Source: Gimibacter soli (GTDB taxonomy: Bacteria > Pseudomonadota > Alphaproteobacteria > Sphingomonadales > Kordiimonadaceae). Taken from it: DNA of 64,000 nt. Made by a program: the position numbers and the translations under genes. The notes below the pieces were generated by a model that saw only the letters and a program-made list of their open reading frames with translations, was not told where the DNA came from and did not search any database. The stretch's first letter is position 1; every line of letters begins with the position of its first letter. Below, one piece after another: positions 36,610 through 59,219 of this stretch. The stretch spans positions 3,468,001-3,532,000 of the forward strand of contig NZ_CP116805.1 in the NCBI RefSeq assembly GCF_028463845.1, read 5' to 3'.

Positions 36610-36702
36610 AACGTGCCTCTTGAAGCCTTGCTGCGCCTGAAGTTTAATGACAGCGCAGGACAAAAACGAGCTTATCAACGATACCACTAAACCACAATAT
36701 AG

Positions 36703-36733: not shown

Positions 36734-36768
36734 ATCAAAATATGCTAATCAGTGAGGACAGGAAACCT

Positions 36769-37521: not shown

Positions 37522-37589
37522 AGACAAAACCCCGGCACGATTGCACCAAGGAATGAAGCAAGAATGCCGTCCAGATGAGGATGACAACG

Positions 37590-43799: not shown

Positions 43800-44046
43800 C
43801 TCGACCCCCGTTCCCATGGCGATGTTAAAGCGTCTGAAGCCCAGACCGTCTGAACGCAAGGCGACGACAAATCCTGCGGCAAAATGGCGGAACCCCGCCA
43901 GACGCGACATCATTGGTTAATGAAAGATTAAGCCCTAGATACCATAGCGGGGGCAATCTCACAACCGGCGATAGAGAAAGGGCATATTATCTCCCGAAAC
44001 TCCGCCACTTTTCCCTTGCCTCCCCCGCCCAAAGACTTCATATTTG

Positions 44047-44060
44047 TGACAACGTTGTCA
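44047..44060. promoter_or_regulatory. LacI-family operator upstream of SSS symporter
   Basis: TGACAACGTTGTCA is a perfect 14-bp palindrome with the central CG typical of LacI-family operators, 71 bases upstream of the TTG start of the symporter. The same palindrome, with one end base changed, occurs at 57945 in the divergent region of a LacI gene. This puts the symporter in that regulator's likely regulon. Confidence 0.82.
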
Positions 44061-44130
44061 AACATCAGCGATCCCGAACGCCGTGGGGGCATGGCGGGAT
44101 GGCTGTCCATACTTCTCGGGGAGGGGTGCC

Positions 44131-45861
44131 TTGCATCTGACGGCTCTCGACTGGGCGATTGTTGCCCTTGTGCTTTTCGGCAACCTTGCGGTTGGCCTTT
44201 ATGTCACCAAGCGGGCGAGTGCGAGTAGCGCCTCCTTCTTCCTCGGTGGGCGTCACATGCCCTGGTGGCTTCTTGGCACCTCGATGGTCGCCACCACCTT
44301 CGCGGCCGATACACCGAACCTCGTGACCGGGCTTGTCCGCACCGGGGGTGTGGCCGCCAACTGGGCCTGGTGGTGCTTCCTCCTGACCGGCATGCTGACC
44401 GCCTTCGTTTACGCCAAGCTGTGGCGGCGGCTCGGCGTCACCACCGATAACGAATTTTACGAGCGCCGCTATTCCGGCAAGCCTGCCGCTTTCCTGCGTG
44501 GCTTCCGGGCGGTTTATCTCGGCATCTTCTTCAATGTGCTGATCATGGGGAACGTGACGCTCGCCGCTATCAAATACGGCGCCGTGCTATTCAATGTGAG
44601 CCCCGTGATGGTGGTGGTGATCGCCGGCGGCGTAACGGTTGCCTTCTCGGCGGCGGGCGGCCTCCTTGGCGTGCTTGTCACCGACATGGTGCTTTTCGTG
44701 ATCGCCATGGCGGGTGCCATCATCGCTGCGCTTTATGCGCTTGATCATCCCTCGGTCGGCGGGCTTGACGCATTGCTTGCCCATGCCAATGTGGCCGACA
44801 AGCTGCCGATGGTTCCGGACATGAGCGACCCGGCTGTTTATGTGCCGCTCCTTGTCATCCCCTTGGCCGTTCAGTGGTGGGCGAGCTGGTATCCGGGGTC
44901 GGAGCCCGGCGGCGGCGGCTATGTGGCGCAGCGTATGCTGGCGGCGAAGAACGAGCGTCACGCCGTGGCTGCGACCGTCTTCTTCAACCTCGCGCACTAT
45001 GCCCTGCGCCCGTGGCCGTGGATCATCGTGGCCCTGGCCTCGCTTGTCGTCTTCCCCGATATCGCGAGCCTGAAGGCAGCCCTGCCGCAGGTTCCCGAAA
45101 ACATCCTGACGGACGATCTGGCCTACCCCGCGATGCTCACGTTCCTGCCTGCCGGCCTTCTGGGGCTTGTGATGGCATCGATTGTGGCGGCCTATGTGTC
45201 GACGATCTCGACGAGCCTCAACTGGGGGGCGTCCTATGTGGTGAACGACGTTTATGTGCGCTTCATGAAGCCGGACGCCACCGACAAACAGCAGGTGATG
45301 GCAGGCCGTGTGGTCACCGTGCTGCTGATGGTGCTTGCCGGGCTTTTCGCGCTGACGCTTGAAAGCGCCAACCAGGGCTTCAACCTGCTTCTGTCAGTCG
45401 GCGCCGGCACCGGGCTTCTGTTCATCCTGCGCTGGTTCTGGAGCCGCATCAATGCCTGGTCGGAAGTGGCCGCGATGGTCATTTCCTTCGCCGTTTCGAT
45501 CCTGCTGGATCGCATCGACTTCGGCCTAGCCTCGCACGAGAAATTCGTGGCCGCGGTTGCCATCACCACGGCAGGCTGGGTGATTGTCACGCTCCTTACC
45601 CCGAAAACCGACGCAGCCAAGCTTTCGGCCTTCAAGGCGGAAACCGCCGCCTTCACCGAGCCCGGCGTGGTGGGTAGCGGCGTGCGTGCTGCCGCATGGG
45701 GTGTCGCGGGTGTTTATGCCCTTCTCTTCGGTCTCGGCCAGCTTCTCTATGGCAACCTGACGGCGGCCGCACTTCTGCTGTTCGTGTTCACACTTGCGAC
45801 GGCGCGAGTGCTGGGCGCGATCAAGCGAGTGCCGGTGACGGAGGAGCCCTCCGCCCCCTGA
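44131..45861 (+). CDS. Sodium:solute symporter (SSS family), likely sugar transporter under LacI control
   Basis: A 576-residue SSS transporter with about 14 helices. Marks are SSASFFLGGRHMPWWLLGTSM, MVATTFAADTPNLVTGLV, GGLLGVLVTDM, YPGSEPGGGGYVAQRMLAAK and MASIVAAYVSTISTSLNWGA. I take the TTG at 44131 (HLTALDW follows) because GGGGAGGGG lies five bases upstream; the frame from a GTG at 44083 lacks a good site. The perfect LacI-type operator at 44047 ties it to the glk/TonB cluster, so a hexose or GlcNAc is the favoured substrate (inference). A terminator follows the gene. Confidence 0.85.
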   Translation: MHLTALDWAIVALVLFGNLAVGLYVTKRASASSASFFLGGRHMPWWLLGTSMVATTFAADTPNLVTGLVRTGGVAANWAWWCFLLTGMLTAFVYAKLWRRLGVTTDNEFYERRYSGKPAAFLRGFRAVYLGIFFNVLIMGNVTLAAIKYGAVLFNVSPVMVVVIAGGVTVAFSAAGGLLGVLVTDMVLFVIAMAGAIIAALYALDHPSVGGLDALLAHANVADKLPMVPDMSDPAVYVPLLVIPLAVQWWASWYPGSEPGGGGYVAQRMLAAKNERHAVAATVFFNLAHYALRPWPWIIVALASLVVFPDIASLKAALPQVPENILTDDLAYPAMLTFLPAGLLGLVMASIVAAYVSTISTSLNWGASYVVNDVYVRFMKPDATDKQQVMAGRVVTVLLMVLAGLFALTLESANQGFNLLLSVGAGTGLLFILRWFWSRINAWSEVAAMVISFAVSILLDRIDFGLASHEKFVAAVAITTAGWVIVTLLTPKTDAAKLSAFKAETAAFTEPGVVGSGVRAAAWGVAGVYALLFGLGQLLYGNLTAAALLLFVFTLATARVLGAIKRVPVTEEPSAP

Positions 45862-45882
45862 CGTATCAGAAGCATAGAGACC

Positions 45883-45970
45883 GTCTCGCGGGGCTGACCC
45901 TCCCCTCCCCTTCCAGCCCCGAGACGATAAAGGCCGCGACACTCCCCTCCTTGTCGCGGCCTTTTCATTT
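45883..45970. terminator. Double hairpin terminator between convergent genes
   Basis: Two hairpins in a row. GTCTCGCGGGGCTG (45885-45898 region) pairs with CAGCCCCGAGAC ending about 45925, with a 2-base bulge. AAGGCCGCGACA (45930-45941) then pairs perfectly with TGTCGCGGCCTT (45952-45963), followed by TTCATTT. The second is a good intrinsic terminator for the symporter and, in reverse, for the gene ending at 45986. Confidence 0.82.
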
Positions 45971-45985
45971 GAGGGTTGGGTTCGG

Positions 45986-46456
45986 TCAGACGAGCAGCTC
46001 GAAGCCGAAAACGCGGCTGGCCTCGGCAAGCTTCAGCCGGATGTCATCCGGCGCCTCGCTCAGGTCCTGCATCAGGATATCAATGCCACCACCCGGCTTG
46101 CGGTTGATACGGATGCGGCCCATGCCTTCGTTATAAAGGATGACCTTTTCAACTTCGTCCCAGCCCAGTTTGCGGCGCGTGGGCAGGCGCAGCTCGGCAC
46201 CCGCCTCCGTCAGCACCAGATAATCGGTCCGCACCAGGAAGGCGTCCCGGGCACTCCTGAAAAGGAAGACAAGCAGCAGCGCAAAAAGCACGGCAAACAG
46301 ATAGCTCGCGCCATTCGGCGGGTCGGCCGGATCGCCGAACCCGGCGAGCGAAAGGAACAGGTCAGCCGCGAACGCAAGGGCTGCAAGCGTGAGAAGCGCT
46401 GCAATCACCAGCCGGCGTTTCAGATAGCTGACTTTGGCATGGAGGGTGACGGTCAT
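45986..46456 (-). CDS. Hypothetical membrane protein with PH-like C-terminal domain
   Basis: 156 residues: two helices (about residues 17-36 and 48-65) and a C-terminal domain of about 90 residues (YLVLTEAGAELRLPTRRKLG, WDEVEKVILYNEGMGRIRIN). The domain resembles bacterial PH-type membrane proteins (transmembrane hairpin followed by a short beta-barrel domain). No function can be assigned. It is in one direction with the gene at 46484, 27 bases away, which has a similar make-up, so they may form a pair. Confidence 0.66.
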   Translation of the reverse strand: MTVTLHAKVSYLKRRLVIAALLTLAALAFAADLFLSLAGFGDPADPPNGASYLFAVLFALLLVFLFRSARDAFLVRTDYLVLTEAGAELRLPTRRKLGWDEVEKVILYNEGMGRIRINRKPGGGIDILMQDLSEAPDDIRLKLAEASRVFGFELLV

Positions 46457-46483
46457 GGGCAGAGACTATCGCTAGCAATGGCC

Positions 46484-46936
46484 TTAAGGGGCGAGGCCGA
46501 GCGCACCCGCAAACTCGCGGGGGCTTTCCACGCTCAGGATATAGCGCTTGCCGTCGCGGAGCTCAAAGAAAACGGCGGCGGCGGGATCGGTGACCAGCAC
46601 AAAGGCGGCCTTGCCGTCCTTCAGCCGGTAGGTGCCGACCTTCAGGTTCGGGAGCCCGGTGCCATTCAGCCGGAGCGACAGGCCAAGCGCTTCATCGTTT
46701 TCAAGATCAACCGGCCGGAAGGATTCGGGCAGGATTTCGGCCCGCGGCACGATCTGCTCATAGGGGAAAAGGCGGATATTCAACACCTTCTCGTCAACGA
46801 GATAGGCATGGCGCGTGCCATACTGGGCGAACAGCACCAGCGCAGCATAGAGAAGGGCCAAAGGCACCAGCACATAAAGCGACCACATCAGACTCGGCAC
46901 AAGATCGACGGCCGGGGCGGAAAAGGCGATTTTCAT
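46484..46936 (-). CDS. Hypothetical membrane-anchored PH-like protein
   Basis: 150 residues with one strong N-terminal helix (about residues 15-38) and a beta-rich domain starting AYLVDEKVLNIRLFPYEQIV, with RLNGTGLPNLKVGTYR and KRYILSVESPREFA. The final segment is typical of the bPH-like families (YILSVESPREF resembles the 'islS..dpe.F' motif of bacterial PH proteins). Function unknown. ATG 46936 follows AGG-type purines. Likely cotranscribed with the gene at 45986. Confidence 0.68.
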   Translation of the reverse strand: MKIAFSAPAVDLVPSLMWSLYVLVPLALLYAALVLFAQYGTRHAYLVDEKVLNIRLFPYEQIVPRAEILPESFRPVDLENDEALGLSLRLNGTGLPNLKVGTYRLKDGKAAFVLVTDPAAAVFFELRDGKRYILSVESPREFAGALGLAP

Positions 46937-46953
46937 TCTTAACCTCCATCCGA

Positions 46954-46983
46954 AAGGGTCCCGTGGGGGGTGACAGGACCCTT
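46954..46983 (-). terminator. Hairpin between 47051 gene and the PH-like pair
   Basis: AAGGGTCC (46954-46961) and GGACCCTT (46976-46983) form an 8-bp stem around a 14-base loop. On the minus strand TTCGG follows. It is a possible weak terminator for the gene ending at 47051 or a leader structure for the one starting at 46936. Confidence 0.4.
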
Positions 46984-47050
46984 GTTGGTGAAGATTACGG
47001 CATTTTTTGGCCAGAACAACCCTTGGGTGTTTTTTAGTCTATTTTAACGT

Positions 47051-47662
47051 TCATTTGCGCGCAGGACGAACCCATGGATGGTCGCTTTCAACATACAGCC
47101 AGCGCTGATGTTCGTCACATCCTTCAAAGGCCGGCAACCCCCAGGGACGATCATCGGCGGGCGGCACATAATCTTCGTCCGCTTCATTCTCGGCGCGGTA
47201 AGCACTGAGGTGGCCAAGCACCGCGCCACGTTCAGCGAAGGACCGAGGCACGTCAAAACCGAGCCGCGCCGAAAGCACCGGCCCAGTCGGAGCACCGAGC
47301 GCAGGGCCACATTCTATTTCGAAAAGATCTTTCGAATAATAGACCGCCACGCGGCTCGCCCAGAAATCGGGCCAGAACAGCATGACGGTGACAAGCGCGT
47401 GGTCTTCATCCCCATCATCGCGGGCTGACACCATATTCTGTCCGGCCTGCAACAGGTACCCGGCACACAGCGCCAGCGTTTCATTGGTCACATCCGGCCC
47501 TTCAACGAGCCAGTCGCTGCAGGAAATACGAAACGGCATGACCAGATCGTCGGGCTCGGGAAAATCGTCCTTGAACCCGTCGGCCCACCGGGCAAGGTGC
47601 CTCAGTTGCTGTGCTTGCGCACGCGCCTGCCGAAATCGCTTCAGCCGTTCAATGATCGCCAT
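47051..47662 (-). CDS. Hypothetical cytoplasmic protein
   Basis: About 203 residues from ATG 47662 (MAIIERLKRFRQ), with GGGGG upstream; another ATG four codons earlier is possible. The N-terminus is a basic helix (RQARAQAQQLRHLARWADGF), followed by a globular part with acidic C-terminus (YVPPADDRPWGLPAFEGCDE, then LYVESDHPWVRPARK). I do not recognise a family. No membrane segments or signal peptide. It stands in the gap between the hexosaminidase terminator and the PH-like genes. Confidence 0.6.
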   Translation of the reverse strand: MAIIERLKRFRQARAQAQQLRHLARWADGFKDDFPEPDDLVMPFRISCSDWLVEGPDVTNETLALCAGYLLQAGQNMVSARDDGDEDHALVTVMLFWPDFWASRVAVYYSKDLFEIECGPALGAPTGPVLSARLGFDVPRSFAERGAVLGHLSAYRAENEADEDYVPPADDRPWGLPAFEGCDEHQRWLYVESDHPWVRPARK

Positions 47663-47676
47663 AAGCCCCCACAAAT

Positions 47677-47716
47677 GAAGCCGCGCCCACCTGCCGGCAG
47701 CAGGGGACGCGGCTTC
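47677..47716 (-). terminator. Terminator of the hexosaminidase transcript
   Basis: GAAGCCGCG (47677-47685) and CGCGGCTTC (47708-47716) form a 9-bp stem, extended inside by CTGC/GCAG pairing. In the minus direction ATTTGTG follows. It lies 40 bases after the GH20 stop and so likely ends the sapC-halogenase-GH20 transcript. Confidence 0.65.
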
Positions 47717-47756
47717 GATAGTTTTAGCGCCACCAGACCAGTGCTGACAAGCGGGC

Positions 47757-50081
47757 CTAGTTCAAGAGTTCAACCTTGTGGATCGCCCAAAGCGGGTCAA
47801 AGCCCGGCCGGGTGAAGCGGAAGCACAGGGTGGCTTCCTCGCCCAGCGGCGCGATTTCGCCTTCGATGGTGGCAACACCGGTCTCGCCCGTGATGGGAGC
47901 GAGCGGCAGGGTAGCGACACGGTCGCCGCCACAGCCGGGCGCCATGACGATCAGCTCACCGCCCGGCGTTTCCTCCGGCTGCACTTCCACCGCTGCAATC
48001 CCCGAGGCGAGCTCGAAATTGAACGGCAGTTCCGAAACGCTGACGCGGATTTTGGTCACGCCTTCCAGATCGGCGTCTTCATAAAGCCAGCAGGGCTTCA
48101 TGATATCGATATTGAGGGGCACCCGCGTGCCACCAAGCGGACCATCGTCCTCGAGCCGCAGGCGCAACGCATTGTCGCAGTGCTTCAGGTCACCCCCCAT
48201 GCGGGTACGCAAGGAGGCAATGTCGAGCCCGAAGTCGCGCGGGGCGGCAATCGGCACACTGCCCGCAAAGGTCGCAGCCCGGAGCTTGCCTTCAAGCGGC
48301 AGGTCGAGCGGTGCGGTCACGGCCGGCGACGCCAGCGTCGGTGCGCTGCCGTCAAGCGTGTAGCGGATGTCGCCATACCCCAGCTGGTTTGCCACCGTCA
48401 CACTCACCCGATCGCCGTCGCGGTCCGCCGTGAAGGCAGGCGCAAAGCCGGTATCGGATACCCGGATACCCATGGCCTGCCAGCGGCCAAGCTGATCGAC
48501 AAGGCGCGGCAGGAAGGCCGAGAAATCACGCTTGCCTTCGTCGCTCCATGTCATTTCGGCGAGCGCTGCGATACGCGGGAAGACCGCGGTCTCCACGCGG
48601 TCATCGGTGCGCATATGCTCGCTCCATGTATTCGCCTGTGCGCCGAGGATATGATGGCGCTTGTCCGCCGCCAGTTCGGCCGGCACGGGCTCGAACTCAT
48701 AGACTGTTTTCAGTGACTGGGCGATCGGGCGGCCCGGCTGTTCGTCGGCGCGCTCGGTGGCGAGGAAATCGAAATACAGGGTCGGTGACGGGCTCATCAC
48801 CACATCATGGCCGTGGCTGGCGGCCTCCAGCCCGCCTTCGGTGCCGCGCCACGACATGACGGTCGCGTTTTCCGAAAGCCCGCCTTCAAGGATTTCATCC
48901 CAGCCGATCAGGATACGACCGTGCGAGGACAGCCATTTATCCAGCCGTTCAACGAAGTAGCCCTGCAGGGCTTCCTCATCCGTCAGGCCTTTTTCCTTGA
49001 TGAAGGCCTGCACGCCGGGGCTCGCCTTCCACTGGTCCTTCACGGCCTCGTCGCCGCCGATATGGACATAGCGGCCGGGGAACAGATCAACAATTTCAGT
49101 GAGCACGCCTTCAAGGAAAGTGAAGGTCGGCTCATAGGGATTGAAAAGCGTTGTATAGACGCCCCATTCGGAGCCCGCATGGGTCGGCGCCGTTACGCCC
49201 GGAATGTCGTTCACCGCCAGTTCGGGATAGGCCGCAATCGGGGTTGTGGCATGGCCGGGTACTTCGATCTCGGGTACAATGGTGATCGCGCGTTCGGCGG
49301 CATAGGCCACGACTTCGCGGATTTCATCCTGCGTATAGAAACCACCATAGAGGCGCGGCTTGCCGGTTGCGGGGTCGATATCTTCCGCCGCTGCCCGGCC
49401 CGCCGGCACCCGCCACGCGCCAACCTCGGTCAGTTTCGGATAGCCCTTGATCTCGATCCGCCAGCCCTGATCATCGACCAGATGCCAGTGGAAGGTGTTG
49501 AGCTTCAGGAGCGCCATCTGGTCGAGCAGCTTTTTGACAAAATCCTTGCCGCGGAAATGACGGGCTTCATCGAGCATCAGGCCGCGCCAGCCAAAGCGCG
49601 GGGCATCTTCGATGGTCAGGGCTTTCAGCCGCACCCCGGCCGGGGCGGGCTCATGGCCCAGCAGTTCAAGGAAGCTGACGCCACCATAAAGAAGCCCGGC
49701 ATCGGTCGAAGCCTCGATGGTGACACCATCGCCCGAGACAATCAGGCGGTAGGCTTCCGCCGCCATGCCGTCTCGGCGCACGAAGCGCACCGCGCCTTCA
49801 GTGCCGGCGGTGAGGGAGATACCAGCCAGCTTCTCAGCATAGGTGGCGACGAAGGCCGCAGCCTTTGCCGCCACCTCGTCGCCCGCTGCCACAGCGATCC
49901 CTGCCTTCGGGGGCAGGACGAAAAAGCCCTCTTCCGCGAACTGCAGCAGGCCCGGCGTCGGCAACACCGAAACCGGCACATCAAGGGGCGCTGCCCCCTT
50001 CGCTGCCTCGTCAGTCTGATTGCCACAGCCCCACAGCATCAGTGCCGCCACCGCGCCGCCGATCCATTTGCCTGCCTTCAT
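47757..50081 (-). CDS. Beta-N-acetylhexosaminidase, GH20, lipoprotein
   Basis: A 774-residue lipoprotein. The signal ends in LWGC (C19), and an N-terminal GH20b domain is followed by the catalytic TIM barrel: RGLMLDEARHFRGKDFVK, NTFHWHLVDDQGWRIEIKGY, the catalytic pair HIGGDEA (D344-E345), then GWDEILEGGL. The C-terminal 200 residues are beta-rich (chitobiase C-terminal/FN3-like with YTLDGSAPT). It would remove terminal GlcNAc from chito-oligomers or glycans at the cell surface or periplasm. The ATG at 50081 has GGGGGAGCG upstream. It is the last gene of the sapC-halogenase block. Confidence 0.93.
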   Translation of the reverse strand: MKAGKWIGGAVAALMLWGCGNQTDEAAKGAAPLDVPVSVLPTPGLLQFAEEGFFVLPPKAGIAVAAGDEVAAKAAAFVATYAEKLAGISLTAGTEGAVRFVRRDGMAAEAYRLIVSGDGVTIEASTDAGLLYGGVSFLELLGHEPAPAGVRLKALTIEDAPRFGWRGLMLDEARHFRGKDFVKKLLDQMALLKLNTFHWHLVDDQGWRIEIKGYPKLTEVGAWRVPAGRAAAEDIDPATGKPRLYGGFYTQDEIREVVAYAAERAITIVPEIEVPGHATTPIAAYPELAVNDIPGVTAPTHAGSEWGVYTTLFNPYEPTFTFLEGVLTEIVDLFPGRYVHIGGDEAVKDQWKASPGVQAFIKEKGLTDEEALQGYFVERLDKWLSSHGRILIGWDEILEGGLSENATVMSWRGTEGGLEAASHGHDVVMSPSPTLYFDFLATERADEQPGRPIAQSLKTVYEFEPVPAELAADKRHHILGAQANTWSEHMRTDDRVETAVFPRIAALAEMTWSDEGKRDFSAFLPRLVDQLGRWQAMGIRVSDTGFAPAFTADRDGDRVSVTVANQLGYGDIRYTLDGSAPTLASPAVTAPLDLPLEGKLRAATFAGSVPIAAPRDFGLDIASLRTRMGGDLKHCDNALRLRLEDDGPLGGTRVPLNIDIMKPCWLYEDADLEGVTKIRVSVSELPFNFELASGIAAVEVQPEETPGGELIVMAPGCGGDRVATLPLAPITGETGVATIEGEIAPLGEEATLCFRFTRPGFDPLWAIHKVELLN

Positions 50082-50206
50082 CGTCGCTCCCCCTTCTTGT
50101 TCAATCTTTGCCGGGAAAAATCGGCGGAGCTTCATCCGAAGCTCCGCCCAGTTCCCCAATATCAGCCGGAGAAATCGAACCGGCCGATCCCTGATGGCGC
50201 CAGGCA

Positions 50207-51718
50207 TCACATATGCAGCTGGCGCAGATAATCTCCGTGTGGTGCCGTGTTTTTCACCGCCATGTCGCCCATGCGGGCGAGATCGGCAAAAATGGCTTCG
50301 GTCTCGGCCGGATCGGCGCGGGTCCAGAGGTCCGGCCGGTGGTCCATGCCATAAAGGATGTATCGGTAATTCTCGTCCGTGAAGATGGTCGAGAAGCTGC
50401 CCGAAAGATCGGAAAATTCGCAGATTTTGCGCCGCCATGCCTCAAGCTGTGCTTTCAGCCACGGGGTATGGTCAACCGTGGCAGGGGCGGCGCGCCAGAA
50501 GTCGCTGTCATCGCGGTCGGTGAGGCAATAATGCAGCACGATGAACTGCTTCAGGTCCTGATAATAGCCGCGCATCAGGCGGTTGAAGCTGTCGCGCACC
50601 GACTGGTCCGGCGCCCCGGAAAGGTGGGTTCCCATCAGCCCTGCGGCCAGATTGATGAGGTGCAGGCCGGTCGATTCCAGCGGTTCGATAAAGCCGCCGG
50701 CAAGCCCGGTGGCGATGCAGTTGCCGACCCAGAATTCGCGGCGGCAGCCCACCTTCATGTCAAGGTGGGTGCATTTCAGCACCTTGGCCTCAGGCCCGAG
50801 GAAGGCGCGAAGCTCGGCCTCCGCTTCCTCGGGGGTCAGGCGGTTGCCGTCATAGACATAGCCCGTGCCCTGCCGGTTCACGAGATCGATCTGCCAAGCC
50901 CAGCCGTTCGTCAGCGCGGTTGCCGTTGTATAGGGTTTCGGCGCCTCGCCGGGGGCCAGTTCCCGCTGCAGCGCGACGGCGCGGTTGCACGGGAGGGCGT
51001 CTTCGAAACTTTCCCAATTGTCGGCCTTCAGCCGGTCGATCAGCAGGCCGCGGAAGCCGGTGCAGTCGACAAAGATATCGCCTTCGAACCGGTCGCCGTC
51101 GTTTGTCACCACCGCCTTGATCGTCGCCCCGTCGCAGTCAACATCGGCGACGGTGGCTTCCACATGGCGCACGCCGGCCTCGATCGCCTTGCGGCGCAGG
51201 AAGCGCGCCATCAGGGTCGCGTCGATATGATAGCCATAGGGCACCACGCCCTGATAGGCACGGGATGTCATGGTCTTCGGCCCGTGGCGCGCTTTCATGA
51301 GGGGGGCGGAAAGGCTCACCCCCTCGTCATAGCGCTCCGCCCCTGCCCGCTCGCTCGTCAGCCACTGGCTCGAGATATCGAGCGTGCGACCGAGCGGCTG
51401 GTGCTCGAACGGGTGAAAATATTCGTGGGGTCGGCCGTCCACCGGCTTCATCCAGTTGCGGAACAGGATGCCAAGCTTGAAGGCGCCGTTTGTTTCCTTC
51501 AGAAGCTCGGCTTCATCAAGCCCCATCTGGGCGAAGAAGAATCGCACGCTGTGCACGGTCGCCTCGCCCACGCCGATGATGCCGATATCCGGGCTTTCGA
51601 TCACCGTGATATCCATGTGGCGACCGGCGAGATTGAAACGGCGGTTGAGGTAGATGGCAGTCATCCAGCCGGCCGAGCCGCCGCCCACAATCACCATCGA
51701 TTTGCGTGCTTCTGCCAT
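50207..51718 (-). CDS. FAD-dependent tryptophan halogenase-like protein, copy A
   Basis: A 503-residue flavoprotein of the tryptophan halogenase family. FAD motif VGGGSAGW (residues 11-18), GVGEATVHSVR, the lysine of AFKLGILFRNW in the position of the catalytic lysine, NGWAWQIDL (WxWxI of halogenases but with D in place of the final P) and GFIEPLESTGLHLI. Members in TonB-receptor carbohydrate clusters are common in Caulobacter, Xanthomonas and marine gammaproteobacteria and have no proven halogenase activity. Stops 125 bases before GH20. The next copy upstream ends nine bases away. Confidence 0.86.
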   Translation of the reverse strand: MAEARKSMVIVGGGSAGWMTAIYLNRRFNLAGRHMDITVIESPDIGIIGVGEATVHSVRFFFAQMGLDEAELLKETNGAFKLGILFRNWMKPVDGRPHEYFHPFEHQPLGRTLDISSQWLTSERAGAERYDEGVSLSAPLMKARHGPKTMTSRAYQGVVPYGYHIDATLMARFLRRKAIEAGVRHVEATVADVDCDGATIKAVVTNDGDRFEGDIFVDCTGFRGLLIDRLKADNWESFEDALPCNRAVALQRELAPGEAPKPYTTATALTNGWAWQIDLVNRQGTGYVYDGNRLTPEEAEAELRAFLGPEAKVLKCTHLDMKVGCRREFWVGNCIATGLAGGFIEPLESTGLHLINLAAGLMGTHLSGAPDQSVRDSFNRLMRGYYQDLKQFIVLHYCLTDRDDSDFWRAAPATVDHTPWLKAQLEAWRRKICEFSDLSGSFSTIFTDENYRYILYGMDHRPDLWTRADPAETEAIFADLARMGDMAVKNTAPHGDYLRQLHM

Positions 51719-51727
51719 CCCTATCCC

Positions 51728-53299
51728 TTAAATCGTTTGCAGGCCGTAGCGCTTGATGCGGGCGATAAGCTCGCGGTGCGGCAGCAGCTCCCCGCAAAGT
51801 TCCCGCGCCTCGCGGCCGATGTCATCGAACAGACGGCGGGCAGCATCCGGCTCGCCGTAGCGCCCGGCCAGCGGCGCCATGTCGGTCCCGAACTCCATGC
51901 CGTAAAGGACATAGAGATAATTCTCGAGATTGAAGATCTCGTACCGGGTTGCGAAGTCGTATGCCGTCGGCGGCTGGTGGCGCCAGACGGCCAGTTGCTC
52001 AGCCAAACGCTCGGGGATGCCATCCGCCCGCCGGTTATCCTGCCAGAAGTCGCTGTCCGTGCGCTTCGTGAGGCAATAATGCAGCTTGATGAAATCGATC
52101 ACCCGGTCCCAGCCATAGCGGACCCGCTCGTTGAAGCGATTGGCGACCGCATCCATCGCCGCGCGGGTGGCCGGCATCTGCTCGGCCAGCATGCGGGCGG
52201 TGACGTCATAGACAAGAATGCCGGTGGCTTCGAGCGGCTCCACAAAGCCTTGCGACAGGCCGATGGCCACGCAGTTGCGCTGCCAGAACCGTTCCCGCAT
52301 GCCGATCCGCATGGGGATACGGCGCGGGGTCGCCTCATCCGCGAGCTTGCCGATCGTCGGGCGCAAATATTCGCGGAACGCTGCTTCGGCCGTTTCATGG
52401 CTCGTGTGCGCTGAGGAATAAACGTAACCAGTGCCGCGCCGGTCCGGCAGGCCGATGTCCCACACCCAGCCCGCGTCCAGTGCGGTCGCATGGGTACAGG
52501 ACGGCAGCGGCGCATCGGGGCTGGTGTAGGGCACCTGCACGGCGAGCGCATGGTCGCAGAAAAGCACATCGCTTTTGGGCACGAAGCCGACGCCCATTGC
52601 CCCTTCGATAAGCTTTGCGGAAAAGCCGGTGCAATCGACGAAAAGATCAGCCTCAACCCGCCCGGCCCGGTCCGTTTCCACCGCCGCGATATCGCCGCCC
52701 TCGGCCATTTCAACGCCGGTGACGTTGGCAAGGATATGCTTCACACCGAGCTTCCCGGTCGCATGCCGCATCAGGAAAGCAGCAAGCTTCGGTGCGTCCA
52801 GATGATAGGCATAATTGGTGATGCCTTCATATTCGGGCTGGGTCATCAGCTTGGGGCCAAGGTGCCGGTCGATGACCTGCCCCTGGACCGAAACGGCATC
52901 CACATAGCTTTTGTCGCCCGCCGCCCCCATCAGCCAGTAAGGCGTGGGGTCAAGGCCGTCCATTGCCGGAAAGTCGAACACATGATGGTAGGCGCGCGCC
53001 GGGTGGCTGCCGGGACTGTGGACCCAGTCCACAAAGCGGATCGACTGTTTGAAGGTGGCATCGCATTCGCGGATGAAATCGGCTTCGCGGATACCAAGAT
53101 GCTTCAATGTCTGGCGGAAGGCGGGCACGGTGCCTTCGCCAACGCCGATGATCGGGATATCGGGGGATTCGAGAAGCGTAACGGCGACACCCTCGGGGTC
53201 TGTCGCCCGAAGGCGGCGGGCAAGGTGACTGGCTGCAAGCCAGCCGGCAGTCCCGCCGCCGACGATCAGGATATGGCGGATATGGCCATCAGGCCGCAT
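51728..53299 (-). CDS. FAD-dependent tryptophan halogenase-like protein, copy B
   Basis: A 523-residue protein, a diverged paralog of copy A: VGGGTAGWLAASHLARR, GVGEGTVPAFRQTLKHLGI, ATFKQSIRFVDW (lysine), AGWVWDIGLPDRRGTGYVYS (WxWxI then G) and GFVEPLEATGILVY. The start at 53299 overlaps the sapC stop by 11 bases, which makes translational coupling likely; the longer frame to 53359 lies inside sapC. The loss of P in WxWxIP in both copies suggests a redox role other than classical Trp halogenation, but that is inference. Confidence 0.86.
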   Translation of the reverse strand: MRPDGHIRHILIVGGGTAGWLAASHLARRLRATDPEGVAVTLLESPDIPIIGVGEGTVPAFRQTLKHLGIREADFIRECDATFKQSIRFVDWVHSPGSHPARAYHHVFDFPAMDGLDPTPYWLMGAAGDKSYVDAVSVQGQVIDRHLGPKLMTQPEYEGITNYAYHLDAPKLAAFLMRHATGKLGVKHILANVTGVEMAEGGDIAAVETDRAGRVEADLFVDCTGFSAKLIEGAMGVGFVPKSDVLFCDHALAVQVPYTSPDAPLPSCTHATALDAGWVWDIGLPDRRGTGYVYSSAHTSHETAEAAFREYLRPTIGKLADEATPRRIPMRIGMRERFWQRNCVAIGLSQGFVEPLEATGILVYDVTARMLAEQMPATRAAMDAVANRFNERVRYGWDRVIDFIKLHYCLTKRTDSDFWQDNRRADGIPERLAEQLAVWRHQPPTAYDFATRYEIFNLENYLYVLYGMEFGTDMAPLAGRYGEPDAARRLFDDIGREARELCGELLPHRELIARIKRYGLQTI

Positions 53300-53993
53300 T
53301 ACGCCCCGCCTTGAGGGAAGCCAGTCGGCGCACCTGCTGCAGCGAGAAGAGATGCGCATAGATGACCGGCAGGATGCCGCGCTGGCGAAGATCGAGGAAC
53401 TTGTCTTCCGCCAGTGCGTTCACTTTGGATTCGTCGATCAGATAGATGCCATCCAGCTGGATGCGCTGGCCTTTCACATCAACGCCGAGGCTTTTTTGCA
53501 CGAAGAGATCAAGGTCGACAAAAAGCTTGATGATGCTGTTGGTGATCATGTCCTGCTCGACATAGCTTTGCAGGCCCTGCTTGCGCATCTGGAGATAGTC
53601 GGTTTCCTGACCATTCTCGAACAGTGCGTCGCCGTCTTCGCTGATCAGCGGGCTCGCGTCATCGATGCCATAGACCAGACGGCCCGTACCATCTTCAAGA
53701 TTCACAAGCTTGAAGGGCATGTTCATGACGATTCGCGGCACATAGACATCGGCCCAGCCATCGGGACCGGCGAAAAGGTTTTCCTTGCTCTCGAGCCCGA
53801 GCAGGGCAACGGCCTGAAACTGTCCGGTTTCGCCGTTCTTCACAAAAACGACAGGCATATCAGCGGCTGCGGCCGGAATTTCCTGGATCACAAGCGGCAG
53901 AATCTGGCTGTCCAAAATCACTGCGGAACGCGGGTCCTTGACCTTGATCTTGTCGTGGACGGTGGCCTGCAGGGGCACAATATTGATAGTCAT
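53289..53993 (-). CDS. SapC family protein
   Basis: A 234-residue soluble protein of the SapC family. The family is named from Campylobacter S-layer genes; in alpha- and gammaproteobacteria it accompanies TonB receptors and tryptophan-halogenase-like genes. Visible: PLVIQEIPAAAADMPVVFVK, FQAVALLGLESKENLFAG, WDVYVPR-like WADVYVPRIVMNMPF and a C-terminal DKFLDLRQRGILPVIYAHL. No signal peptide. Biochemical role unknown. It follows a strong terminator downstream of the TonB receptor and starts the sapC-halogenase-GH20 transcript or continues it at reduced level. Confidence 0.88.
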   Translation of the reverse strand: MTINIVPLQATVHDKIKVKDPRSAVILDSQILPLVIQEIPAAAADMPVVFVKNGETGQFQAVALLGLESKENLFAGPDGWADVYVPRIVMNMPFKLVNLEDGTGRLVYGIDDASPLISEDGDALFENGQETDYLQMRKQGLQSYVEQDMITNSIIKLFVDLDLFVQKSLGVDVKGQRIQLDGIYLIDESKVNALAEDKFLDLRQRGILPVIYAHLFSLQQVRRLASLKAGRNAA

Positions 53994-54048
53994 GGTGTCT
54001 CCTTTACCTCGAATGCCGTATTGGTAAAGCTTTGCCCGCTACAGTCCA

Positions 54049-54076
54049 GAAAAAGGGGAACGTATTCCCCTTTTTC
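54049..54076. terminator. Strong hairpin (terminator/attenuator) between TonB receptor and sapC
   Basis: GAAAAAGGGGAA (54049-54060) and TTCCCCTTTTTC (54065-54076) make a perfect 12-bp stem with a CGTA loop. The A-tract/U-tract is part of the stem on either strand. It lies 21 bases after the receptor stop. It probably lets the receptor be made in excess over the downstream sapC block. Confidence 0.85.
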
Positions 54077-54096
54077 TTTGCTTACATGGTTAACAA

Positions 54097-56655
54097 TCAG
54101 AACTTCACAGCTGCGCCAAGCGTGATACGGCGCGGCATCTCGTACTCATAGAGCGGGAAGCCATTGGTGAAGCCGCTGTTCGGTGTACGCGATGCGTTGT
54201 TGCCGAACTGCTTGGAGCTTTCCTCGAGGATGTTGTTCACATCGAGCTTCAGCGAGATGTTGCTGGTGATGAACCAGGACGCGCTGAAATCGAGGCTACC
54301 ATAGTCGTCATGCAGGCGGTTGCCGTAGGAACCCGACTCACGCAGCATGTAGGCACTGCGCCAGTTGTAGGCGAGACGCGCCTGGAAGTCCTCGTTCTCG
54401 TAGTAACCGGTGAGGTTCAGCGAGTGCTTGGAGCTGTCCGACAGGATGCGGTTGCGGTCCGTGAAGGTGTCGCGGTCCGTTTTGGCATCGGTGAAGGTAT
54501 AGTTGGCGATCGCGCCGAAGCCGTTGCCGAATTCCTGCTGATACTGGAATTCGAAGCCCTTGGCGGTGGCGGCCTTGCCGTTCACCTTCTCCTGCACCGT
54601 CCAGCCTGCAGCAATCTCGTCCGGACGCAGCACGCCCGGGAACGGTACGTCAGCATCGTCTGCATGATATTCGGTGAAGTTCACGAAGTTCTTCACGTCT
54701 TTCATGAAGACAGCAGCCGACAGCAGCGAACCTTCAGCGAAGTACCATTCCACACCGACATCAAACTGGTTTGCCACGAACGGCTTCAGGCCGACGTTGC
54801 CGATGATCCAGTACTGGTTGTTCGGCAGGTCGTCGTTGGAGCCCACAACGTTCGGGTTCACATACATATCGACATATTGCGGACGCGCCATCACGCGGGC
54901 GGCCGAGGTGCGGACGATCACGTTTTCCGCCACATCGAAGGCCACGTTCAGGCTCGGCAGGAACTGGTTGTAGCTGCCGTCCGTATCGGTTTCGGTGCCG
55001 CCGACGAAATAGGTCGAGGTGGCATCGGTATGGATGAAGCGAACACCGAAGTTACCACGGAAGCCGTCACCTTCGAAGGAGCTCATGCCGTAGGCGGCAA
55101 AGTTCTTCTCGGTCACTTCCGAATAGGCACCAAGGTCTTCGACTTCGCCGGTGATGCTGGCTTTAGCCCAATCCTTGAGTGCTTCGGAATCGAAGCGGAT
55201 CATCTTGTAGTCGCCTGCGCCCACGTCGTAGGTGCCGGTGGAGAGGCCCGAGGTCGAGATGATATTGTCGAAGCCCGCAGCCTGCGTGAACTCGAAGCGG
55301 CGGCTCGTGGTATTGTGGTCGGCATATTTCACACCGGCCTTGAAGGTCTTCAGCACGCCAAGGTCAAGTTCCCACTCGGCATCGGCCTGAACATACCATT
55401 CCTTGTCGGTCTTCGGCGTCTTGTTGAAGGCCGAGCCAACGCCCATGGCAAGCGAACCCGGATCATAGGTTTCGAGGTCGAAGCCGTTCAGGTCCCACGT
55501 CTGGTTGCCGTTGCGGAAATCATAGGTGCCGCCCGGGATCGGGGTGCCACCGGTGCCATCATCCACAACCATCTCGAAATCTGTACCGCCGGTCGAGCTG
55601 GTGCGACCAACCTGGAACCAGGCCTTGTAGCCTTCGCCCGTGTAGGTGGTCGACAGGTCGATGACGTCCGAATTCATGGTCGCTTCACGCGGACGCGCCT
55701 GATAATAGGCCACGTTCAGCGGGCCGGCGACCGGGGTGCCGTAAAGCTGCTCGTCGGGGGCAACATCAACACCGCACCAGGTGCAGTTGCCCTGCGTCAG
55801 CCACAGCGCATAGTTGGTGTTGTCCGCCTTCATCTGCATGTCGGTGGCATTGAGGACGATGTCGAGCTCTTCGGTCGGACGCCACTGGATGGTGGCGTTG
55901 AGCGCGCGACGCTTGCGGTTCTGTTCGAAACCGACCGGGCCTGCACCCCATTCCCAGAATGCTTCGTTACCCTGACGCTGCAGGTGACGCTGCTGATACA
56001 CGCCCGAAACGAGGATACCGAGGGTTTCCTCGGCGTTTTTCCAGCTGTACAGAGCCGATGCCTGCGGATCGACGTCGCCCGAATCTTCCTGATACTGGCC
56101 TTCAACCGAAGCGTAGAAGGAACCCGAATCCATTTCGAGCGGCTTGCGGGTGTTGATCACAACCGTACCACCGACGCCGCCTTCAGCGAGGTCAGCCTGG
56201 CTCGACTTGTAAACCTGGATGTTGCCAACGAGTTCCGACGGCAGCAGTTCATAGTTGAACGAACGCTTGGCAGGCTCAAGCACGAACCAGCCGGTCGAGG
56301 CCACGTTCTGGCCGTTGAGCGTGGTCAGCGTCAGATCCTGGCCCGCACCACGGATCGACACGCCGGCGCCTTCGCCAAACTGCCGCTGGATGGTAACGCC
56401 CGGTACGCGCTGCAGCGATTCCGCCACGTTGCGATCCGGAAACTTGCCGATATCTTCGGCCGAGATAGCATCGACAATGCCATCGTTGTTGCGCTTGACG
56501 TCAAGCGCAGCCCTGAGGCCGCCGCGGATACCGGTGACGGTGATTTCCTCGAAATCGCCATCGCCCGCTTCCTGGGCATGGACCGCACCAGCGGCCGCCC
56601 CGATGAGCGCAAGTGCGCTCACACTTTTCATGAATGACTTCCGTGTAACCCTCAT
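54097..56655 (-). CDS. TonB-dependent receptor (carbohydrate-type), 852 residues
   Basis: An outer-membrane receptor with signal peptide (residues 1-27, ending VHAQ), TonB box (EEITVTGIRGGLRAALDVKR), plug domain with AEDIGKFPDRNVAESLQRVPG, GVSIRGAGQDLTLTTLNGQN and KSSQADLAEGGVGGTVVINT, and a long beta barrel ending YEMPRRITLGAAVKF. The PDRNVAESLQRVPGVTI form of the plug is the one of carbohydrate-uptake receptors in Caulobacter and Xanthomonas clusters. ATG 56655 has a perfect AGGAGGAA. Next to glk, LacI and GH20, so chito-oligosaccharides or glucans are likely substrates. Confidence 0.93.
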   Translation of the reverse strand: MRVTRKSFMKSVSALALIGAAAGAVHAQEAGDGDFEEITVTGIRGGLRAALDVKRNNDGIVDAISAEDIGKFPDRNVAESLQRVPGVTIQRQFGEGAGVSIRGAGQDLTLTTLNGQNVASTGWFVLEPAKRSFNYELLPSELVGNIQVYKSSQADLAEGGVGGTVVINTRKPLEMDSGSFYASVEGQYQEDSGDVDPQASALYSWKNAEETLGILVSGVYQQRHLQRQGNEAFWEWGAGPVGFEQNRKRRALNATIQWRPTEELDIVLNATDMQMKADNTNYALWLTQGNCTWCGVDVAPDEQLYGTPVAGPLNVAYYQARPREATMNSDVIDLSTTYTGEGYKAWFQVGRTSSTGGTDFEMVVDDGTGGTPIPGGTYDFRNGNQTWDLNGFDLETYDPGSLAMGVGSAFNKTPKTDKEWYVQADAEWELDLGVLKTFKAGVKYADHNTTSRRFEFTQAAGFDNIISTSGLSTGTYDVGAGDYKMIRFDSEALKDWAKASITGEVEDLGAYSEVTEKNFAAYGMSSFEGDGFRGNFGVRFIHTDATSTYFVGGTETDTDGSYNQFLPSLNVAFDVAENVIVRTSAARVMARPQYVDMYVNPNVVGSNDDLPNNQYWIIGNVGLKPFVANQFDVGVEWYFAEGSLLSAAVFMKDVKNFVNFTEYHADDADVPFPGVLRPDEIAAGWTVQEKVNGKAATAKGFEFQYQQEFGNGFGAIANYTFTDAKTDRDTFTDRNRILSDSSKHSLNLTGYYENEDFQARLAYNWRSAYMLRESGSYGNRLHDDYGSLDFSASWFITSNISLKLDVNNILEESSKQFGNNASRTPNSGFTNGFPLYEYEMPRRITLGAAVKF

Positions 56656-56760
56656 GTCTTCCTCCTGGTTCCCTCGGTAAAGTTTCGCCGCCCCGGCCTT
56701 GCCTGGGTCAGCTTCGCCCTTGGTAGTCTCGAGGCCGCAACTTCGGCCCTTCTTCAAACT

Positions 56761-56778
56761 CCCGGCTTTGATGCCGGG
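56761..56778 (-). terminator. Short hairpin between glucokinase and TonB receptor
   Basis: CCCGGC (56761-56766) pairs with GCCGGG (56773-56778) with a 6-base loop, five bases after the glk stop. In the minus direction AGTTTG follows. It may partly end transcription or act as an mRNA processing site between glk and the receptor gene. Confidence 0.4.
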
Positions 56779-56782
56779 TAAC

Positions 56783-57826
56783 TCAAACTCGCAACTCGGT
56801 GTTCACGTACCATCCGGCTGCCCCGACCACGCCCAACTGGCCGTGGTCGATAAGCCGCACCGGGATGTCCTCCAGAAAAGGGCGCATGGCCCCCTTGTCC
56901 GCGAACCGCGCCATAAAGCGGCTCGCCAGAAGATAGTCGCGGATCGAAGGCAGGATGCCGCCGGCGAGGTAGAAGCCCCCGCGGGCGCCGAACGCGAGCG
57001 CGAAATCGCCCGCAGCGCTGCCCATCAGTTCGCAGAATTGTTCAAGTGTCTCGGCGGCAAGCTGGTCGCTGCCTTCAAGGCCGGCGGCGGAGACCGCTTC
57101 GGGCGTTTCAAGCACTGCCGCCCGCCCTGTCACATCGGCCATGGCATGGTAAAGGCGCAGGAGCCCCGGCCCCGACAGCGCGGTTTCGAGCGAGACGAAG
57201 CTGTGACGCTTCTTCAGCGCTTTCAGAAGTTCGATCTCACGTTCTGTTACCGGGGCAAGCGAGGCTTGGCCGGCTTCGGTATTGAGCGCGAGGACCGTAT
57301 CGCCGCTGTGCGCCAGCACCGCCGCGCCAAGGCCAGTACCCGGCCCCATCACGCCGATCGTGTCGCGTGGGCTGGTCTTGGCGCCCTTGTTGAGGATCAC
57401 CGTCTCTTCGGCCTTCAGATGCCGGGTGCCATAGGCCACCGCGACGAAATCGTTGATGGTGCAGATGTCGGCGAGCCCGAGCTTGTCGCGAATATCGGAA
57501 AGCTTCACCGACCACGGCAGGTTGGTGGCGATAAGGTCGTCCCCCACCACATAGCCGGCACTGGCAAGCGTTGCGGCCTTGATGCCGGTCGGGCCGGTCG
57601 TCGCCACAAAATCCTCGACGATGGCGGCGAGGTTCGGGAAATCCAGATTGCGGTATTTCTTATAATGATGGATCGACAGGGCATTGCCATTGACGTCGGC
57701 ATCGATGACGGCGAGGCGGGCATGCGTCCCCCCGACGTCGGCGGCAAACAGGCGATAGGCGGACACGGCCTGTGCGTTCGGCCGTTTGCCAGAAATGTCC
57801 AGTCCCGTCATGGCCTGCATATGCAA
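56783..57826 (-). CDS. glk: Glucokinase (Glk, PF02685 type)
   Basis: A 347-residue kinase that phosphorylates glucose to feed the Entner-Doudoroff pathway. FAADVGGTHARLAVIDAD (phosphate loop), NLPWSVK, INDFVAVAYGT (catalytic Asp), GVMGPGTGLGAAVL and NTEAGQASLAPVTERE are glucokinase motifs, and GARGGFYLAGGILPSIRDYL is near the C-terminus. ATG 57826 has GAAGGGGCG upstream. In many relatives glk is in the zwf operon; here it heads the LacI-controlled cluster. A GlcNAc-kinase role is possible but the motifs point to Glk. Confidence 0.9.
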   Translation of the reverse strand: MHMQAMTGLDISGKRPNAQAVSAYRLFAADVGGTHARLAVIDADVNGNALSIHHYKKYRNLDFPNLAAIVEDFVATTGPTGIKAATLASAGYVVGDDLIATNLPWSVKLSDIRDKLGLADICTINDFVAVAYGTRHLKAEETVILNKGAKTSPRDTIGVMGPGTGLGAAVLAHSGDTVLALNTEAGQASLAPVTEREIELLKALKKRHSFVSLETALSGPGLLRLYHAMADVTGRAAVLETPEAVSAAGLEGSDQLAAETLEQFCELMGSAAGDFALAFGARGGFYLAGGILPSIRDYLLASRFMARFADKGAMRPFLEDIPVRLIDHGQLGVVGAAGWYVNTELRV

Positions 57827-58178
57827 GTCGCCCCTTCACTTCCCGTCGGGCACATCGCTGCACCCTGTCCCGTTCGCATGGCGGATACCGCCATGCCCGA
57901 AGCCACGCCCCCGCGTGTCATCTGATTGTCATGCTTATTGATTATGACAACGTTGTCTAGTCTATTTTTTCATGTATGCTTACGATGTCATTAAGAATGA
58001 CCACGTTATCATTGATTTATCGTGACGAGTCATGGGGATAGGCCGTACACTGCAACCAGCCCGGTAGCATTGACGCATTCAAAGCAGCCAGCCATAAGGG
58101 TGATCGGGGACAGGCAGCCTGCAGAAAAAGGCAGGCGAGTCTCGGCGCCGCACCCGGCGACTGGAGAGGGGAACAAGC
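57827..58178. promoter_or_regulatory. Divergent glk/lacI control region with two LacI-type operators
   Basis: A 352-base region without genes. It holds TGACAACGTTGTCT at 57945-57958 and the variant TGACCACGTTATCA at 57998-58011 (2 of 14 bases differ from the consensus palindrome). The centres are 53 bases apart, about five helical turns, so bound regulator could face the same side. GTCATT-AAG-AATGAC (57987-58001) is a further inverted repeat overlapping the second site. A run of T at 57965 is near the first site. The palindrome is shared with 44047. Confidence 0.85.
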
Positions 58179-59219
58179 TTGAGCAAGGCAACGATCAAGG
58201 ATGTGGCGCGACAGGCCGGAGTGTCGCTCAAGACCGTTTCCAGGGTGATCAACAATGAACCGACCGTTCGCGCCGAGACGCGCGAAAAGGTACAGGAAGC
58301 CATCAATAATCTGGGCTATCAGCCGGATATGGCGGCCCGCAACCTGCGCGGTGCCACCTCCTATGCCGTCGGTCTCGTTTACGACAACCCGAACCCCTAT
58401 TATGTGGTCGATATCCAGCAGGGCGTGCTGAAATGCTGCCGCGAGCTTGGCTACGGCCTGCAGATTCACCCCTGCGACGCGTCCTCGCCGCAGCTGATCG
58501 ACGAACTGGCCGAGCTGGTGCTGCATTCGCGCCTAGCCGGCCTCGTGCTCGCCCCGCCGATTTCAGAGAATGACGATATCGTGCAGGCGCTGGCTGACCG
58601 CAGCATCCATGTGGTGCGGATCGTATCGGGCGCCGATGCACCGGGCGGCCCTGCCCCCGCCGTGCATGTGAATGACCGCGCCGCCGCCTATGCGCTGACC
58701 GATCATCTGGTACAGCTTGGCCACCGGCGCATCGCCTTCCTTTCGGGGGAAGAGGAGCACCGCTCCACGCCCGAACGCCGCGCCGGTTATGAAGAAGCCC
58801 TCCAGGCGCACGGCCTGCCGGTCGACCCGGCCCTTGTGTTGCCCGGCCGCTATACTTTCGATTCGGGCTTCAACCGCACGCAGGCACTGCTGGCCGGGCC
58901 TGACCGCCCGACAGCGATTTTCGGCTGCAACGACGAGATCGCGGCAGGCGCCCTGGCGGCCACCCGCGCGAACGGCATGAAAGTGCCCGGAGACCTGTCG
59001 ATTGTCGGCTTCGAGGACAGCCCCTTCTCACGGCAATCCAGTCCGCCTTTGACGACCGCCGCCCAGAAAACCGAGGCCATCGCCCGGCAAGCCATGCTGC
59101 GGCTCATTGGCGCCATGCGGCCGCATACGACAGAAGAAATGAACTCCGGCCCCGAGGCCGATGTGTTTGTGCCGAACCTGATCGTGCGCCCGTCGACCGG
59201 CCCGGTCACCAGTCGCTAG
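58179..59219 (+). CDS. LacI family transcriptional regulator of the glk/TonB cluster
   Basis: A 346-residue repressor. N-terminal HTH and hinge: SKATIKDVARQAGVSLKTVS, RVINNEPTVRAETREKV, GYQPDMAARNLRG. C-terminal periplasmic-binding-type sugar domain with SYAVGLVYDNPNPYYV and GFEDSPFSRQSSPPLTT near the end. The start is a TTG at 58179 with GGAGAGGGG upstream. It sits divergent from glk, with two matching operators between, and a third in front of the SSS symporter at 44131. Inducer likely glucose, GlcNAc or a phosphorylated form (inference). Confidence 0.93.
   Translation: MSKATIKDVARQAGVSLKTVSRVINNEPTVRAETREKVQEAINNLGYQPDMAARNLRGATSYAVGLVYDNPNPYYVVDIQQGVLKCCRELGYGLQIHPCDASSPQLIDELAELVLHSRLAGLVLAPPISENDDIVQALADRSIHVVRIVSGADAPGGPAPAVHVNDRAAAYALTDHLVQLGHRRIAFLSGEEEHRSTPERRAGYEEALQAHGLPVDPALVLPGRYTFDSGFNRTQALLAGPDRPTAIFGCNDEIAAGALAATRANGMKVPGDLSIVGFEDSPFSRQSSPPLTTAAQKTEAIARQAMLRLIGAMRPHTTEEMNSGPEADVFVPNLIVRPSTGPVTSR

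Follow-up and report, generated by a model that had tools for sequence, protein, structure and literature searches.

The closest described systems are N-acetylglucosamine (GlcNAc) regulons controlled by LacI family repressors. According to PMC3223726, NagR of Shewanella oneidensis binds upstream of nagP, nagK, mcpNag, ompNag and cbp, GlcNAc abolishes its shift of the nagK fragment, and these five genes are up 5- to 50-fold in the mutant. In two Xanthomonas species, the kinase and TonB receptors are predicted targets of NagR, and nagAB and nagP are predicted targets of NagQ (PMC5343134). The LacI family protein NagI of Stenotrophomonas maltophilia represses nagPIBAF, and the data in PMC13055268 point to GlcNAc-6-phosphate as the inducer. 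Here we analyse a 64,000-nucleotide stretch (the window, bases 3468001-3532000) of the single-contig Gimibacter soli genome (3,591,784 bases). In it, the palindrome TGACAACGTTGTCA is located upstream of a symporter gene of the SSS (sodium/solute symporter) family and, in variant forms, in the gap between divergent glucokinase-family (glk) and lacI genes. The locus quite probably belongs to a GlcNAc regulon in which a NagR-type LacI protein uses the palindrome as its operator and the SSS symporter takes the place of NagP.

Judged by published gene content (PMC3223726 and PMC2996990), the system resembles the Shewanella NagR regulon in having a LacI repressor over nagK, nagB-II, nagA, an outer membrane receptor and an inner membrane permease. 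The likeness extends to a chemoreceptor and a hexosaminidase among the targets and to NagX in the pathway list. The Shewanella permease is NagP, of the major facilitator superfamily (MFS) type, whereas the window genome has an SSS symporter, adds pgi and carries a gene for a NagQ-like GntR protein at the head of nagBA. Coexistence of NagQ and NagR is shared with the two Xanthomonas species (PMC5343134). NagR/NagI proteins of Lysobacterales (Xanthomonas, Stenotrophomonas) are 56-61% identical to the window LacI; most of their loci have the same palindrome, with a divergent glucokinase-family gene, a TonB receptor gene and a GH20 gene beside it. The four Lysobacterales loci examined for this encode a NagP-like MFS permease between the palindrome and lacI, which scores below the NagP cut-off but passes the one for the glucose/galactose permease subfamily; the window gap holds no permease. 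This kind of system is already known; the probable transporter swap and the predicted membership of pgi are the new part.

Predicted operators in the window and the genome

44047-44060: perfect palindrome TGACAACGTTGTCA, upstream of the symporter gene, whose proposed TTG start is 77 bp from the centre of the palindrome; predicted operator
57945-57958: O1, TGACAACGTTGTCT, one mismatch, glk/nagK side of the glk/lacI gap; predicted operator
57977-57990: O2, TGCTTACGATGTCA, four mismatches (weak), between O1 and O3 in the gap; predicted operator
57998-58011: O3, TGACCACGTTATCA, two mismatches, overlapping a -10-like element towards lacI/nagR; predicted operator
37582-37595: TGACAACGATGTCA, one mismatch, overlapping the nagB start codon, identical in the sister genome G001; predicted operator
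44131..45861, + strand: SSS-family Na+/solute symporter, proposed GlcNAc importer (PF00474, 104 bits, cut-off 22.8)
58179..59219, + strand: LacI-family regulator, NagR type (PF00356, 75.3 bits; PF13377, 133 bits)
56783..57826, - strand: glucokinase-family kinase, proposed GlcNAc kinase NagK (PRK12408, 369 bits, cut-off 240)
54097..56757, - strand: TonB-dependent receptor, after the kinase gene (TIGR01782, 620 bits, cut-off 310)

Allowing up to three mismatches, the window contains seven matches to the palindrome; 100 shuffles gave 1.35 on average, and not one gave as many as seven. The first-pass annotation had reported the sites at 44047, 57945 and 57998, with exact positions and mismatch counts. 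It had seen no other copy and had taken the glk/lacI gap to hold two sites 53 bp apart. The distance is right, but TGACAACGATGTCA is a further copy and the weak site at 57977-57990 was missed. At the symporter gene, TGACAACGTTGTCA has the same letters in the same place in G001.

In the whole genome, 19 places match the palindrome with up to two mismatches, against five for the reversed pattern. Such a scan had been proposed as a check, with random scatter of the motif speaking against a regulon, and its outcome does not refute one. Six places are at nag genes, pgi or the symporter gene: symporter (no mismatch), glk/lacI gap (one and two), nagB (one), pgi (one; genome position 1055823) and a NagX-like gene (two; 819913). 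All six recur in G001 with the same adjoining genes. A second palindrome, TGACAGCGCTGTCA, accounts for six more, all of them perfect copies (147179, 1278893, 1387309, 1853665, 2840616 and 3545590 of G000:C1, the window genome). The other seven (387598, 782869, 1957004, 2953621, 3076454, 3373349 and 3495765) fit neither group and are about as numerous as the five matches of the reversed control. The site at 2953621 (one mismatch, before a MHYT-GGDEF gene) was considered as a regulon member and dropped, because its sequence is not among the 20 sites with up to two mismatches in G001.

The GCGC-type TGACAGCGCTGTCA sites adjoin genes for a second glucokinase, two TonB receptors, another SSS symporter, a GH97 protein and a LacI paralogue. 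They suggest a parallel, perhaps alpha-glucoside, regulon whose operator differs from the TGACAACGTTGTCA type at two bases. The genome has 14 LacI-domain matches, 13 of them over the cut-off. In another genome, G051 (locus L228), GCGC-type palindromes are located on a TonB-SapC-halogenase cluster, a NagX-like gene and a LacI gene (39%), which suggests that operator specificity may have shifted in the family of G051.

Linkage of the palindrome to NagR

The LacI protein contains both a helix-turn-helix and a periplasmic-binding-like sensor domain. Its closest named relative is that of Pseudokordiimonas caeni (Kordiimonadaceae; L032), 96% identical. Related loci were fetched by the LacI protein alone and the best 80 of 121 were taken; they are mostly from Lysobacterales and hence not independent. 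Apart from the 96% of the sister species, LacI identity to the window protein is 54-65% in 79 loci (54% in Bowmanella, L105).

The palindrome with up to two mismatches is present within 2.5 kb upstream of lacI in 68 of the 80 loci (32 perfect, 34 with one mismatch, two with two), L072 with only 400 bases upstream being scored as a miss. The reversed pattern was found in 2/80 loci, the downstream 2.5 kb gave 1/71, and 60 shuffled-half palindromes gave 0.35% of 4,800 tests. A kinase, NagB or NagA homologue is encoded within the fetched stretch in 78 of the 80 loci. Counted by gene, the neighbours are a glucokinase-family kinase (71), TonB receptor (70), NagP-like protein (69), GH20 (61), NagB (56) and NagA (51), ordered NagP-LacI-NagB-NagA in Stenotrophomonas L067; a symporter-like gene was found in one locus only (L034), as a distant paralogue with 26% identity. 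The recognition-helix pattern was detected in 75 of the 80 LacI proteins, 73 of which have VSLKTVSRVI; the LacI paralogue adjoining a GCGC site has VSIKTVSRV instead of VSLKTVSRV. The link between a NagR-type regulator encoded at 58179 and the palindrome as its predicted operator is strong for a prediction.

Other predicted members of the regulon

The regulon seems to take in also nagB-nagA, pgi and the NagX-like gene, none of them claimed by the first-pass annotation. The nag block of the window comprises:

36742..37521, + strand: GntR/UTRA regulator, NagQ-like by position, first gene of nagQ-nagB-nagA (PF00392, PF07702)
37590..38633, + strand: nagB-II, glucosamine-6-phosphate deaminase (SIS family), proposed start 37590 (PF01380)
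38633..39796, + strand: nagA, GlcNAc-6-phosphate deacetylase (TIGR00221, 322 bits, cut-off 225.65)
39943..41037, + strand: chemoreceptor-like gene directly behind nagA (PF00015, 53.6 bits)

The best NCBIfam match of the nagB product is NagB_SO3506 (350 bits, under the cut-off of 430), and the NagQ-like protein reached no cut-off among the 25 NCBIfam models listed (of 27). The chemoreceptor-like gene recalls mcpNag of Shewanella. A direct repeat, ATTGGTATTTCATTGGTTATC, is present in the zwf/nagQ gap (window 36670-36760) and resembles a tandem site of NagQ. NagQ motifs are tandem in nature (PMC5343134). The nagB and nagX sites have GACAACGATGTCAAAA in common, over the start codons.

For further comparison we defined a set of genomes with close NagR (E ≤1e-100): eight of the 59 searched, the window genome included. 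Five genomes reaching only E ≤1e-80 were left out (43-46% identity; the window genome's own paralogue has 43%). Upstream of pgi, the alignment contains a single long conserved block, TGGCAACGTTGTCAT / ATGGCAACGTTGTCAT, in G000, G001, G014, G021 and G022, and a variant with one change in G017. Of 17 genomes searched, G002, G003, G005 and G051 had no pgi match. A pgi site with at most one mismatch is present in five of the seven close-NagR genomes with a pgi match, against one of six genomes without NagR (E ≤1e-80), where it is a two-mismatch variant. An overlap of the pgi site with the start codon was considered and rejected, as by comparison the gene probably starts some 28-40 bases further downstream. 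In G007 (L235, 3171-3285), nagB-nagA-nagP is closely preceded by an acetyl-CoA synthetase gene, which itself has a perfect and a two-mismatch palindrome before it. NagA releases acetate.

The symporter and NagP

The symporter open reading frame opens at 44083. A start at the TTG at 44131, which follows GGGGAGGGG, is more likely, since homology starts nearby (matches from G005, G042 and G051 begin at query residues 12-17). The protein is a divergent SSS member, inside the family by Pfam. Among proteins of solved structure, those closest to it in sequence include vSGLT, SGLT1/2 and SiaT; homology is nearly full length to vSGLT (2xq2, 3dh4; E 1.6e-29) and SiaT (5nv9; E 3e-20), and we judge this similarity enough to take the fold as vSGLT-like. 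Where vSGLT has Ser-Ser at its sodium site, the aligned residues of the symporter are Ser-Thr. The vSGLT galactose ligands N64, Q69, E88 and S91 align with T, T, W and F, and a different sugar pocket is therefore likely.

At E ≤1e-130, orthologues were found in 12 of 246 genomes of the order and in none outside it (class sample 1/385, the window genome; phylum sample 2/398, the window genome and G005). In four of the 12 (G005, G051, G442, G453) the symporter gene is located directly behind nagB-nagA, and in three of these four a BadF-like kinase gene precedes nagB. About 4 kb separates nagB-nagA from the symporter gene in the window genome and in G001.

NagP was searched for with a NagP-like protein of Rhodanobacter (364.5 bits, below the NF046060 cut-off of 625, over the TIGR01272 cut-off). 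With this query the window genome gave no match at E ≤1e-20 nor at E ≤1e-10; phosphotransferase system (PTS) EIIC gave none at E ≤0.001. Three of the eight close-NagR genomes (G000, G001, G005) have the symporter and no NagP match (E ≤1e-20). The other five (G007, G014, G019, G021, G022), all with the gene order nagB-nagA-nagP, have NagP and no symporter orthologue; the two never occur together. The SSS symporter appears to stand in for NagP in the NagR regulon, and the shared predicted operator and the operon slot shared with NagP make GlcNAc its likely substrate. Comparative genomics supports one regulon, so the substrate would be a sugar, as the first-pass annotation had proposed; that sugar is most likely GlcNAc and not glucose.

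Among SSS sugar importers, PMC5583593 gives GalP3 (galactose; by gene context) and NanX (sialic acid), which like the window symporter are SSS proteins in sugar pathways, for other sugars. For GlcNAc, the passage there names PTS, ABC and NagP, and no SSS protein. We found no SSS importer for GlcNAc in the open-licence literature, which was covered in small part only, nor any paper on Kordiimonas with GlcNAc and chitin.

The glk/lacI gap and the neighbouring genes

Measured centre to centre, O1 and O2 are 32 bp apart, O2 and O3 21 bp. The 53 bp between the outer sites recurs in P. caeni (L032), the metagenome-assembled genomes L033 and L034, and Kordiimonas gwangyangensis (L035), each of which also has a middle site with three or four mismatches 32-33 bp from the first. 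K. sediminis (L063) also has three sites, with different spacings. A loose promoter scan of the gap gave two divergent elements with 9/12 matches each (0.4 expected in shuffles). Both -35-like hexamers overlap O2, and the lacI-side -10-like element overlaps O3. The 53 bp had been read as about five turns of DNA. The distance stands; a DNA loop between the sites at 57945 and 57998 was considered and set aside, since three sites (32 + 21 bp) lie over weak divergent promoter-like elements and no loop is required to explain the spacing.

The kinase shares 46-54% identity with its counterparts at four other nagR loci and 34% with the second glucokinase of the genome. As the regulon sugar is most likely GlcNAc and not glucose, the "glucokinase" is probably a GlcNAc kinase, an assignment made by context. 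Behind the TonB receptor gene, the window contains:

54055..54070, - strand: terminator-like hairpin between the TonB receptor and SapC genes (two found, 0.2 expected)
53289..53993, - strand: SapC-family gene (PF07277)
51728..53359, - strand: tryptophan-halogenase-family gene 1 (PF04820)
50207..51718, - strand: tryptophan-halogenase-family gene 2 (PF04820)
47757..50438, - strand: GH20 beta-N-acetylhexosaminidase (PF00728, 391 bits; longest open reading frame, true start probably further in)

The two hairpin matches are the two strands of a single hairpin. All five relatives inspected by eye (L032-L035, L063) have a similar hairpin with changed letters at that place, with a weaker T tail in L063. 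The genes from the TonB receptor to GH20 are closely spaced. The one LacI regulon proposed earlier is upheld by comparative genomics for the symporter, the kinase and the TonB receptor; its extension to the GH20 block is doubtful because the hairpin separates the block from the TonB gene, with read-through a possibility. PEP-CTERM sorting-signal proteins are encoded at 43104-43913, upstream of the symporter gene, and at 59305-60339, downstream of lacI.

Alternative explanations

Several observations weigh against the symporter being a NagR-controlled GlcNAc importer. It does not reach the TIGR00813 cut-off (116.8 bits against 184), and a consensus scan found no sigma-70-like promoter around its palindrome. 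A site with up to two mismatches upstream of the symporter gene or its operon is present in only four of the 12 symporter genomes: perfect in the window genome and G001, perfect before nagB-nagA-SSS in G005 (L157), and with one mismatch before BadF kinase-nagB-nagA-SSS in G051. The two genomes with the site at the symporter gene itself are sister species (95% identical symporter proteins). Six of the 12 showed no nag gene within the 5 to 17 kb examined, some contigs being short. The symporter may therefore have other roles elsewhere. Distant NagP-like matches (26-36% identity) occur in three of the 12 symporter genomes (G051, G472, G482); of the four such loci, the three examined (all except L230) showed no nag gene nearby. 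Conservation of the nagB and nagX sites may be partly coding, as they overlap start codons. Finally, the NagX-like protein scores below its cut-off (148 bits against 480), and such proteins may be GlcNAc permeases themselves. The same regulon could then have a symporter that carries chitobiose, glucosamine or another amino sugar, with GlcNAc entering by the NagX-like or an unrecognised permease. NagF, the GlcNAc permease reported within nagPIBAF of S. maltophilia (PMC13055268), is possibly NagX-like, the NagX-like gene of the window genome has its own site, and GH20 and the TonB receptor suggest oligomers. This we consider unlikely, though it deserves weight: a NagX-like gene occurs together with NagP in G007, so NagX does not make NagP dispensable, and in four genomes the position behind nagB-nagA, otherwise that of NagP, is occupied by the symporter.

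The sites could also be bound or co-bound by another LacI paralogue, for instance that at genome position 3545392, which goes with TGACAGCGCTGTCA, with cross-talk between regulons. The two palindromes differ at two bases, the recognition helices only by VSIKTVSRV in place of VSLKTVSRV, hybrid sites, TGACAACGCTGTCA, exist beside NagR in Dyella, and GCGC sites are located on the TonB/SapC/NagX-like cluster of G051. It remains improbable, given that the GCGC sites of the window genome are at other genes and that the TGACAACGTTGTCA type is linked to NagR in most loci. A glucose or glucoside regulon with a true glucokinase would agree with the kinase passing glucokinase models and with pgi as a target, yet it is very improbable: sites are located at nagB-nagA and the NagX-like gene, the second glucokinase belongs to the other regulon, and the kinase is nearer to those of four nag loci. 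Chance alone could account for the two-mismatch sites, which by themselves are near background, and for the seven ungrouped places, but hardly for the shuffle test, the conservation in G001 and the linkage to NagR; we give it next to no credence as a source of the palindromes.

Proposed mechanism and implications

From the sites, their conservation, the gene order and the pattern of presence and absence, we infer binding, repression, inducer, substrate and sodium coupling as follows. Without GlcNAc, NagR would be bound at its sites, blocking the divergent promoters of nagK-TonB receptor and nagR as well as those of the symporter gene, nagB, the NagX-like gene and pgi. On entry of GlcNAc, either GlcNAc or GlcNAc-6-phosphate (published accounts differ on the inducer) would free NagR from the sites. 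GlcNAc or chito-oligomers would cross the outer membrane through the TonB receptor, GH20 would trim the oligomers, and the SSS symporter would carry GlcNAc with sodium across the inner membrane, in place of the MFS permease NagP, whose gene occupies that operon slot in related genomes. The kinase would then form GlcNAc-6-phosphate, NagA and NagB would convert it to fructose-6-phosphate, and PGI would lead towards glucose-6-phosphate and the glucose-6-phosphate dehydrogenase branch.

With somewhat less confidence, we lean towards a broader view, in which this SSS clade is a new class of sodium-driven GlcNAc importers. It would have displaced NagP in the NagR regulon of Kordiimonadaceae and related families, taking the slot behind nagB-nagA under the same operator, and direct control of pgi by NagR would link the uptake of amino sugars to the entry point of hexose-phosphate breakdown. 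The unassigned symporter clade receives a likely substrate by two independent lines, the shared operator and the operon slot shared with NagP, which points to a regulon keeping its operator while the transporter is replaced by an unrelated one. If true, there would be a sodium-coupled route for GlcNAc, the sugar of chitin, beside the PTS, ABC and MFS routes.

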